From: Erwinia sp. JUb26
GTDB lineage: Bacteria > Pseudomonadota > Gammaproteobacteria > Enterobacterales > Enterobacteriaceae
Length of the DNA stretch: 64,000 nt
Assembly: GCF_003751505.1 (NCBI RefSeq)
Contig: NZ_RJVB01000003.1
Location: forward strand, 184,712-248,711
Reading direction: 5' to 3'
Position numbers and translations under genes: made by a program
Notes under the pieces: model-generated
Seen by the model: the letters and a program-made list of their open reading frames with translations, nothing else
Told to the model about the DNA's origin: nothing
Databases searched by the model: none
Part shown: in pieces, positions 28,757 through 33,328 of the stretch
Position numbering within the stretch: the first letter of the stretch is position 1
Layout: every line of letters begins with the position of its first letter

Positions 28757-29044
28757 ATGACCAAGTCAGAACTTATTGAACGACTTGCTGGCCAGCACTC
28801 TCATATTCCGGCGAAAGTCGTTGAGGATGCGGTAAAAGAGATGCTTGAGCATATGGCGACGACCCTGTCGCAGGGCGAACGCATTGAAATCCGGGGATTT
28901 GGCAGCTTCTCTTTGCATTATCGTGCACCTCGTACCGGCCGTAACCCGAAAACGGGCGATAAAGTGGAGTTGGAAGGTAAATACGTTCCACACTTCAAGC
29001 CAGGTAAAGAACTGCGCGATCGCGCCAATATCTACGGCAGCTGA
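28757..29044 (+). CDS. ihfB: Integration host factor subunit beta
   Basis: Forms the IHF heterodimer with IhfA, which bends DNA sharply at specific sites and serves in recombination, replication and promoter activation. The 95 residues (E. coli 94) begin [20 protein letters not shown]. The beta-arm motif [21 protein letters not shown] (near residues 45-65) carries the proline that intercalates in DNA. A GGAGG ribosome binding site precedes the start. It ends in a strong terminator. Confidence 0.98.
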
Positions 29045-29060
29045 TAGCGACGAAACGATA

Positions 29061-29090
29061 AAAACGACACTTCGGTGTCGTTTTTTTTTT
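29061..29090 (+). terminator. ihfB intrinsic terminator
   Basis: ACGACAC (29064-29070), a TTCG tetraloop and GTGTCGT (29075-29081) are followed by a run of ten T residues starting within the stem. This is a strong rho-independent terminator 20 bases after ihfB. Confidence 0.93.
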
Positions 29091-29280
29091 GGCTGTAATT
29101 CGGTGATTCGGCGGCGATACGGTGACAAGCCGCATTGTAGAATCGGAACCCAGCACACAATATTCCTTTCTGATTACTGCAAAACAGAAAAAGTTTGCGG
29201 CCTGTCTCTGAGCCCCGATACTGCGCTGATGCCCGTTTTTCCCCTGCATGGCACACTCTGTCAGGTACCAGGGAGGGAAC

Positions 29281-31544
29281 ATGCGAATAACAGCAACACA
29301 GCTGGCGGGCAGTCTTATTATCGGCACGTTGCCGCTCACGGTCATGCCGCGAATACCCGGCTATAGTTACGACATCACGGCACTCGCGCTTTCATTTTTG
29401 TTGATGCGCAGCCGTCGGCGAATTGCCATAATTACCGCAATGGCCTTGTTCTTATCTCTCTGGCCGCTGAATACCGCACGATCTCTCCAGGAGCAAATTG
29501 AATCGCTGACTCAGGGTACCGTGCGGGTTGAAGTGCAAATTGACACCGTCCTGCCCGGCGGTGAACGTGCCAGAGTGCGCCTGTTCCGTCGGGATGATCG
29601 GCTTATTTTCCCGCCGATTTATGCTTCCTTGCGATTACCCAACGGCGAGCAGGCCTTCTGCCCGGGGCAGCGTTGGGATATGACGCTGGCACTGCGCCCC
29701 GTGCATGCTCAACTCAATGAAGGTGGGTTCGATCGCCAACGATTTACTCTGGCAAATAGCATGCCGCTGACGGGGCGGGTTATTAATGCGAAGGTGCGGC
29801 AGCCTCAGTGCAGCTGGCGCAGTACCCTGATGAATTCTGCCCGGCAAAGCTATGGACATTTACCCTGGAAGGCTCTGATTTCCGCGCTGGCGTTTGGCGA
29901 CCGTTCTGAGGTAGCCCGGGAAATCACCCAGCTGTTAAGGGAAACGGGTACGGCGCATCTGATGGCCATCGCCGGGATGCAGATTGGCCTGGCAGCAGGC
30001 TTCGGCTGGCTGCTTGCCAGACTCATTCAGTTCTTTTTCCCAGCCTGGCTGATTGGCTATCGCTTCCCTTTGTACAGCAGTCTGCTGGTGGCATTGCTCT
30101 ACTGCTAGCTTTCCGGCAGCAATCCGCCAGCGATGCGGGCCATGCTGGCACTGTTGACGTGGAGTGCGCTGAGGCTGAAGGGGATTAACTGCAGCAGTTG
30201 GCAGGTCTGGCTGTTTTGTATTGCGATGATCCTGTTTCTGGAACCGCTTAGCGTTCTGTCAGACAGTCTGTGGATGTCTGCGCTGGCCGTGGCAGGCTTG
30301 CTGATCTGGTATCAAAGCTTTGCGTTGCCCATCCGTTTCCGCCGAGGGAAGCGCTGGCTGCCGCTTCGCCTGCTGCATTTGCAATTGGGCATGCTGCTGC
30401 TGTTAATGCCGCTGCAGGTGTTTATTTTTCACGGTTTCAGTCTGAGTGCACTCGTCGCTAACCTCTGGGCCGTGCCGCTGATTTCCCTGATTACCGTGCC
30501 GCTGATACTGACGTCTCTGTTGCTTAACATCGTGCCGTCGGTTGGCCCCTTTATCTGGTGGCTGGCCGATCGCTCACTGGCACTGGTCTTTTTCCCTTTG
30601 CAGCAACTGCCCAACGGCTGGTTTCATTTGGAGAACACGCTCGCAGCCGTTTCGCTGGTGTGCTGGCTGCTGCTGCTAGCACTGCGCTTCGGCTGGTGGC
30701 GAAGCTCCCCGGCCAGCATACTGCCTGTACTTTATTATTGTTGAGTTGGCGGGATTTTAGCGCCAGACCCGAATGGCGTGTGGATATGCTGGATGTCGGC
30801 CATGGATTAGCCGTGGTGATTTCACGGCATGGCAAAGCCGTTTTATACGATACCGGCAATCGCTGGCCGGGAGGGGATGTTGCCCACAGTCAGATTATTC
30901 CCTGGCTGGAATGGCAGGGATTAATGCTGACCGATGTGGTCATCAGCCACGCCCATCTGGATCATATTGGCGGGCTGCCGAGCATTCAGTCTGCGTTTCC
31001 CTATGCGCGAGTGCGTAGCGCGTTGAAGCGCCCCGGCCATTTTCCCTGTTACCGGAATGTCAGCTGGCGCTGGCAGGGACTGAGCTTTAAAGCGCTGTGG
31101 CCGCCAGAGGAGATGCCGGGAGAGGGCAATAATCAGTCCTGCGTGGTCGCGGTCAGCGACGGACGCTGGCGCGTGCTGTTGACCGGGGATATTGAACGCG
31201 AGGCAGAGCTGCGGCTCGTCGCCGGGCAACGCGCCGCACTGGCTGCGGATCTGTTACAGGTTCCGCATCACGGCAGCCGTACCTCATCAACCCCGCCGCT
31301 GCTGCGCGCGGTAGCACCGAAGGCCGCCATCGCGTCTGCGGCACGCTACAGTGCATGGCGGCTTCCCGCAGCGAAAATAATTGCGCGCTATAGCGAAAAT
31401 CACATCATCTGGCGTGATACCGCGCTTTCCGGGCAGATTAGTGCGCGTTTTTTCGTTGATAACTGGCATCTTTTAGGGCTAAGAGAACAAATAATGAACC
31501 GTTGGTACCATCAGTGGTTTGGCGTACCCAGGGAATCCAGGTAG
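29281..31544 (+). pseudogene. comEC: comEC/ycaI DNA-uptake channel homologue, disrupted by amber stop and frameshift
   Basis: ComEC carries single-stranded DNA across the inner membrane in competent bacteria; E. coli YcaI is its homologue. Three pieces follow one another. The first (29281-30108, AGGGAGG before ATG) gives the N-terminal membrane and OB-like part and ends VALLYC at a TAG (30106-30108) where E. coli has Trp. The second continues in the same frame (to 30744) with membrane helices of the competence domain and stops early. The third, in the next frame, carries the metallo-beta-lactamase domain (LDVGHGLAVV, HAHLDHIGG, LLTGDIERE, VPHHGSRTSS) to the normal C-terminal REQIMNRWYHQWFGVP. 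One base seems lost at about 30722-30741. The usual SGLHI motif reads AGMQI. A functional full-length product is not expected. Confidence 0.88.
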
Positions 31545-31579
31545 AATGAGCGGCTATTTCAACTAAAGCTGGTTAAATA

Positions 31580-33328
31580 ATGCATCTGGATAAAGATCTC
31601 TCAACCTGGCAGACATTTCGTCGTCTCTGGCCAATGATTGTGCCTTACAAGGCGGGATTATTTGTGGCCGCTGTCGCGCTGATCCTTAACGCGGCGGGCG
31701 ATACGCTTATGCTGTCACTGCTGAAGCCTTTACTCGATGATGGTTTTGGCAAGGCGGATAGTTCTGTTCTGATATGGATGCCGCTGGCCGTTATTGGTCT
31801 GATGCTGATTCGCGGTATTACCAGCTATGTCTCAAGCTACTGTATATCCTGGGTGTCCGGAAATGTAGTTATGGGCATGCGCCGCAGACTGTTCAGCCAT
31901 ATGATGGGCATGCCGGTCTCATTTTTCGATCAGCAGTCAACGGGAACGCTGCTTTCACGCATTACCTATGATTCTGAGCAGGTCGCGTCTTCTTCTTCCA
32001 GCGCGCTGGTGACCGTTGTGCGTGAAGGGGCCTCGATTATTGGCCTGTTTATCATGATGTTCTATTACAGCTGGCAGCTGTCGCTGATCCTGATTGTTCT
32101 GGCACCTATCGTATCCTTTGCCATTCGCAGCGTGTCAAAACGCTTCCGTAATATCAGCAAGAACATGCAGAACACCATGGGGCAGGTCACCACCAGCGCC
32201 GAGCAGATGCTGAAAGGGCACAAAGAAGTGCTGATTTTTGGCGGACAGCAGATCGAAAGTGAGCGCTTCGATCGCGTCAGCAACCGTATGCGCCAACAGG
32301 GCATGAAACTGGTCTCGGCGTCATCTATCTCTGACCCGATTATTCAGCTGATTGCCTCCCTGGCTCTGGCCTTTGTTCTTTATGCTGCAAGCTTCCCAAG
32401 CGTGATGGAAACGCTGACCGCCGGTACGATCACCGTTGTGTTCTCCTCAATGATTGCGCTGATGCGTCCGCTCAAATCACTGACCAACGTTAACGCCCAG
32501 TTCCAGCGTGGAATGGCGGCCTGCCAGACGCTGTTCTCGATTCTGGACAGCGAGCAGGAAAATGACAAAGGCACCCGCACCGTCGAGCGCGTGAAGGGCG
32601 ATATCGAGTTCCGTAATGTGACCTTCGCCTATCCGGGGCGTGATATTCCCGCACTGAAGAACATTAATCTCAATATTCCGGCAGGAAAAACGGTTGCTCT
32701 GGTCGGGCGTTCAGGCTCCGGCAAGTCCACTATCGCCAGCCTGCTGACGCGCTTCTACGATATCCAACAGGGCGAGATTCTGATGGATGGCCACGAACTG
32801 CGTGAATATACCCTGTCGTCGCTGCGTAATCAGGTGGCGCTGGTTTCACAGAATGTGCATCTGTTTAACGACACTATCGCTAACAATATCGCCTATGCAC
32901 GCGGCGATCAGTACAGCCGTGAAGATATTGAGAAGGCGGCTGTCATGGCCCATGCGATGGACTTTATCGGTAAAATGGAACATGGCCTGGACACCGTGAT
33001 TGGTGAAAACGGCGTGCTGCTTTCCGGTGGTCAGCGTCAGCGTATCGCGATTGCGCGCGCGCTGCTGCGCGACTGCCCGGTGCTGATTCTTGATGAAGCT
33101 ACATCGGCGCTGGATACGGAATCCGAACGTGCGATTCAGGCCGCGCTGGATGAACTGCAGAAAAACCGCACTTCGCTGGTTATCGCTCACCGTTTGTCGA
33201 CTATCGAAAAAGCCGATGAGATTGTGGTGGTGGAAGACGGACAGATTGTCGAGCGCGGCAGCCACGAATCGCTGCTGGCTGAACGCGGTGCCTATGCACA
33301 GCTTTATAAGATGCAGTTTGGTAAATGA
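31580..33328 (+). CDS. msbA: Lipid A flippase MsbA
   Basis: Homodimeric ABC exporter that flips core-lipid A across the inner membrane; essential in E. coli. The 582 residues (E. coli 582) have six membrane helices (about 20-320) and an ATPase domain with Walker A GRSGSGKS (376-383), signature [15 protein letters not shown], Walker [14 protein letters not shown] and the H-loop histidine in [10 protein letters not shown]. It lies 35 bases after the comEC remnant and overlaps lpxK by four bases (ATGA). Damage to comEC leaves this operon intact. Confidence 0.98.

Follow-up and report, generated by a model that had tools for sequence, protein, structure and literature searches.

The gene comEC (ycaI) lies at positions 29281-31544 of the + strand in the stretch of DNA that was analysed (64,000 nucleotides, G000:C3:184712-248711, hereafter the window), which is part of the genome of Erwinia sp. 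JUb26 (G000; 5,365,586 bases in 23 contigs, 99.96% completeness). It starts with an ATG at 29281 and has its natural stop at 31542-31544, with ihfB upstream and msbA downstream, and the features of the region are as follows.

28757..29044, + strand: ihfB, intact upstream neighbour (PF00216; 94-95 of 95 residues matched in four relatives)
29281..30105, + strand: 5' part of comEC, codons 1-275 (PF13567, DUF4131, at residues 34-157; tblastn to the intact relative L004)
30106-30108, + strand: first lesion, in-frame TAG at codon 276 (direct reading)
30109..30722, + strand: middle part of comEC, original frame (PF03772 profile positions 79-269 on 30133-30741)
30715..30744, + strand: second lesion, a net shift of one base at about 30723, followed by a stop in the original frame at 30742-30744 (tblastn and DNA alignment)
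30723..31544, + strand: 3' part of comEC, shifted frame (PF00753, metallo-beta-lactamase-like, E 1.5e-26; tblastn 89% identity to L004)
31580..33328, + strand: msbA, intact downstream neighbour (PF00664 and PF00005; full-length 98% match to the relative G008)

The gene belongs to the ComEC/Rec2 family, as it aligns over its full length with intact relatives and the DUF4131, PF03772 (Competence) and metallo-beta-lactamase-like domains are all present, spread across three pieces. Pfam places PF03772 profile positions 1-69, around the first quarter of the channel domain, in the 5' part alongside DUF4131. The window copy does not form one uninterrupted frame of about 750 codons: codon 276 is a TAG and the frame shifts near codon 481. 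The comEC genes of L004 and L005, which are 81-82% identical to the window copy, are open over 754 codons. Codon 276 encodes Trp in the other 36 of the 37 genomes of the genus sample and is TAG in the window genome. After the TAG the original frame stays open for about 211 codons, to the stop at 30742-30744. With tblastn, comEC segments 1-481 and 482-754 are found in different frames, with the switch at 30723, and the DNA alignment has a single-column gap at about 30723 in the window only, the shift being absent in L003, L004 and L005.

The initial annotation, made from the letters alone, had described a Trp codon replaced by TAG at 30106-30108, a frame that stays open for about 210 codons beyond it, a one-base shift at about 30722-30741 and a protein recognisable in all its parts up to the natural C-terminus. 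The first two are borne out by direct reading and the genus comparison, the third by the frame switch and the alignment gap, and the fourth by the Pfam domains together with a tblastn match that runs to 31544. It had also proposed an alignment of comEC across relatives, in which both window lesions turned out to be missing from the relatives compared, and had held that an intact comEC elsewhere would weaken the case for loss; a profile search of G000 (draft, 23 contigs) gave no second PF03772 match, the sole match being the broken comEC. Its picture of comEC between intact essential genes holds in that both neighbours are matched in full in relatives, whilst essentiality can be kept for msbA but not for ihfB, which is generally not ranked as essential. 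Judged from its sequence, comEC of the window is a pseudogene, with disabling lesions that have no counterpart in its orthologues and no intact paralogue in the draft assembly.

Breaks in comEC across the genus and the family

The genus sample comprised 37 genomes, G000 included, none of the others being conspecific with the window genome; amongst them are Pantoea coffeiphila 1480 (G008), an uncultured Erwinia genome (G030), Erwinia persicina (G013), Erwinia rhapontici (G020) and Erwinia piriflorinigrans (G016). Over about 60 kb the window shares 90.6% identity with G008 and 89.9% with G027. A blood isolate, Erwinia sp. SLM-02, is described with a genome of 5.39 Mb whose ANI to P. coffeiphila is 90.28% (PMC12387707), and the window genome may be of the same species as this isolate.

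Of the 15 possible trees the best one pairs the window genome with G008 as sisters, both for comEC and for a set of five neighbour genes, and the best tree without this pair is worse by 8.1 log units for comEC and by 17.7 for the five neighbour genes. The two data sets disagree over where G030 and G027 (L105 and L104) belong in the tree, a conflict that is possibly a sign of recombination at the comEC locus, and recombination may therefore blur the branch estimates given below.

The sister genome also has an interrupted comEC (L003 / L036, NZ_JAFBFW010000002.1), through the insertion of a single base into a G run near codon 128. The lesions are not common to the two sisters, as the G008 insertion is absent in the window and the TAG and shift of the window are absent in G008. 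The G008 lesion may be a genuine mutation, a switch that works by slippage, or an error of sequencing. The only other break in the genus sample is in G026 (L027, G026:C1 about 1647823-1648637), where the reading frame is shifted close to codon 282, likewise at a run of G. Thus comEC is broken in three of the 37 genomes (G000, G008 and G026), by different events, and open in 34. When short or interrupted best copies of other genes were sought in the same genomes, dprA was broken in none of 36 (G031 having no match), comM in none of 37 and ycaO in none of 37. The comparison of 3/37 for comEC with 0/110 for the three controls gives a Fisher p of 0.015, or 0.038 with a length-weighted count, and is only a hint of an excess of comEC breaks, being built on three events, two of them in related genomes, with controls of our own choosing. 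In G031, a genus member of 3.4 Mb, the pattern of loss is reversed, with no match to a DprA domain and an open comEC frame.

These counts bear on whether comEC has been selectively switched off in the sister pair, with DNA uptake having become harmful or useless to the cell, for example through conflict with mobile elements or at an early stage of life in a host. That the two sisters carry different comEC lesions would fit, as would the hint of an excess over control genes; conflict over transformation has been published for other species (PMC11472951), and early decay of comEC is on record for symbionts of stink bugs (Erwiniaceae) in which genome reduction has begun (PMC8032781). However, at 5.37 Mb the window genome is not reduced, its comEC contains no insert, the genes around comEC correspond one by one to those of relatives, and plain relaxed selection accounts for the same facts, all of which makes a selective switch-off an unlikely cause of what is otherwise read as a young pseudogene.

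Beyond the genus, comEC was matched in 199 of 294 genomes of the family, and amongst the best 150 of these 199 matches the open frame is shorter than 700 aa in five (G000, G183, G143, G038 and G085), that of G085 lying near a contig start. No breakage rate is taken from this survey because broken copies would gather amongst the weaker matches. Within 63 named loci the longest comEC frame is below 700 aa in L036, the G008 gene already mentioned, L049, L079 and L088. The last three are broken comEC genes of Trabulsiella odontotermitis 01, Leclercia adecarboxylata NCTC13032 and Citrobacter youngae CCUG 30791 respectively, with several breaks, which may be sequencing errors, in the Leclercia gene, whilst comEC is open in another T. 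odontotermitis locus (L092).

Age of the decay and accuracy of the sequence

The age of the pseudogene was approached by fitting a codon model to five genomes (window, G008, G030, G027 and G023), in which the lesion codons were set as gaps. Across these five genomes comEC is under clear purifying selection (dN/dS 0.11), and enterobacteria are mostly not known as transformable. The dN/dS of comEC is 0.140 on the window branch against 0.108 elsewhere (2dL 1.42, p 0.23), with a bracket of about 0.095-0.205 for the window branch as read between printed values of the likelihood profile, and neutrality forced on the whole of the window branch is rejected (2dL 75.9). When the distant outgroup is removed the values become 0.155 against 0.105 (p 0.088), therefore relaxation may be somewhat larger. 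For the five neighbour genes pooled the window branch has a dN/dS of 0.058, compared with 0.063. On the G008 branch there is no relaxation of comEC, 0.083 against 0.120 (p 0.096), and msbA is unusually constrained on that branch (p 0.0027).

A rough mixture leaves 3.6% of the window branch, at most about 10%, free of constraint; about one stop (up to 2.9) would be expected in the unconstrained part and one is observed. On this evidence the decay of comEC, which had seemed recent to the initial annotation, is young compared with the split from G008, the window-branch value of 0.140 being far from neutral.

By segment, the window branch has a dN/dS of 0.236 for the first 275 codons (p 0.041, uncorrected), 0.052 for the middle and 0.111 for the last, so that only the first 275 codons hint at relaxation and the three tests form no consistent pattern. 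These values touch on a further reading, namely that the gene is split but partly working, with the nuclease domain made alone after translation restarts, for instance from the ATG that stands in frame at 30786. This ATG is close to the start of the metallo-beta-lactamase-like domain, the domain itself is complete by Pfam, and the segment that encodes it is unrelaxed. Against it, the ATG has no clear ribosome-binding site by eye, comEC is unsplit in 34 of the 36 other genus members, and the lesions have not existed long enough for selection to be informative; the selection test fits both a gene that has just died and one whose pieces are still used, and cannot tell them apart. Nor is any function known in the family for the ComEC nuclease domain by itself. 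A working fragment seems very improbable beside a young pseudogene.

The accuracy of the sequence itself was controlled with 83 ORFs of at least 120 aa, 42 of G008 and 41 of G027, taken from the syntenic 60 kb of each; they cover the window up to about 0.5 kb from either end. In the window 78 of the 83 are matched over at least 98% of their length with no stop. Of the remaining five, two are comEC, once per genome, and three are frames of 148, 371 and 396 aa, each with a single stop, that overlap wholly or partly with other genes and are for that reason judged to be spurious or over-extended. Bad sequence is unlikely on these counts, and two errors in one gene with none in the clean ORFs would be improbable. 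Although the G008 lesion sits in a run of G, a typical site of error, that is a different genome, and by eye neither window lesion falls within a long run of one base; together with the 23 contigs and 99.96% completeness of the assembly, this makes it highly unlikely that a sequencing or assembly error produced one or both window lesions.

Probable loss of the channel, and the rest of the DNA-uptake pathway

The other genes of DNA uptake that were looked at in G000 all have open frames, amongst them those for HofQ (420 aa), HofC (415), Sxy (208), DprA (375) and ComM (518). HofM, HofN, HofO, HofP and HofQ adjoin one another and are all open, and so are PpdD and HofB. The Hof and Ppd names were assigned by us from gene order and sequence, and the set leaves aside comF, comEA and the minor pilins PpdA/B/C beside recC.

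It is very likely that comEC of the window is a very young pseudogene, with the channel lost and the other tested genes of the pathway open, and that it is one of three breaks at the tips of the genus. The nonsense change stops translation within the membrane channel domain, and the separate one-base shift throws the nuclease domain out of frame, so the inner-membrane channel for single-stranded DNA would no longer be made, in which case DNA uptake driven by the pilus should stop at the inner membrane. The pilus-like Hof/Ppd proteins, Sxy, DprA and ComM still have open frames, either as the loss is too recent for decay to have spread or as the proteins do other work. By analogy with the need for ComEC in other species, it is plausible that the strain has lost DNA uptake as a source of nutrient or for transformation.

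Three different comEC breaks at the tips of the genus tree would fit a repeated loss of competence in which the losing lineages are short-lived. This has been proposed for the Pasteurellaceae, where competence defects are unique to lineages and recent, and where the authors suggest that frequent loss is followed by the long-term elimination of the lineages concerned (Redfield et al. 2006, PMC1626085). In the table of that study rec2, the homologue of comEC, is marked as present for all the genomes listed and it is other com and pil genes that are defective, whereas in the window it is comEC that is broken. A close likeness is with the Pantoea-like symbionts of stink bugs in the Erwiniaceae, in which comEC is described as pseudogenised between ihfB and msbA; as in the window, rpsA and ihfB are upstream and msbA and lpxK downstream, and in the symbionts SoEus and SoPs-B, of the same family as the window genome, the comEC region is of normal length with interrupted ORFs (PMC8032781). 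The symbiont genomes are 3.9 and 2.4 Mb and have several small broken ORFs, whereas the window gene has two lesions only. In Piscirickettsia salmonis comEC is interrupted in all the genomes inspected whilst other transformation genes are intact, as are those tested here, but there the interruption is by transposable elements (PMC12955456) whereas the window gene has a premature stop and a shift of a single base, its sister being frameshifted elsewhere in the gene. In Acinetobacter baumannii a strain deleted for comEC is non-transformable, while inactivated competence genes other than comM are reported rarely to explain natural variation (PMC11472951). The main text of a further paper, PMC3330819, has no mention of comEC, ycaI or rec2.

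The window comEC is thus a further instance of a repeated loss that has been described before, here in an unreduced genome. Taken alone it is ordinary gene decay, and the independent lesion in the sister genome adds a little. A wider idea is that DNA uptake in Erwinia and its family breaks repeatedly and by preference at comEC, with the pilus-like, regulatory and DNA-processing genes kept for other work, and this we hold only tentatively and think rather doubtful. If true, the clade would be a natural test of whether competence is lost often and the losing lineages die out. Recent and different losses of comEC at the tips of the genus, with the other tested genes kept, are in any case a data point on what maintains competence genes, and pairs of close species are available for comparing growth on DNA and transformation. 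In E. coli, YcaI, a ComEC homologue of the same family, sits in the same gene order as in the window (ihfB-comEC-msbA-lpxK), the difference being that comEC is broken in the window.

Signals of expression near comEC were also inspected. A CRP-S (Sxy-dependent) site was sought upstream of comEC in ten stretches by means of a consensus, the stretch of L040 not being truly upstream as its match begins inside the gene, and the best matches were 7-8 of 10 positions in each stretch, 7 in the window, with no discrimination between them. The scores, alike in all ten, do not bear on whether the comEC promoter has decayed. A scan of 29000-31700 for promoters and terminators gave three promoter-like sites against 1.5 expected. 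One weak promoter-like site, with a score near chance, is found at 31519-31547, at the very end of comEC, and could drive msbA; it is of interest since the upstream stop in comEC might reduce expression of msbA if the two genes share a transcript.
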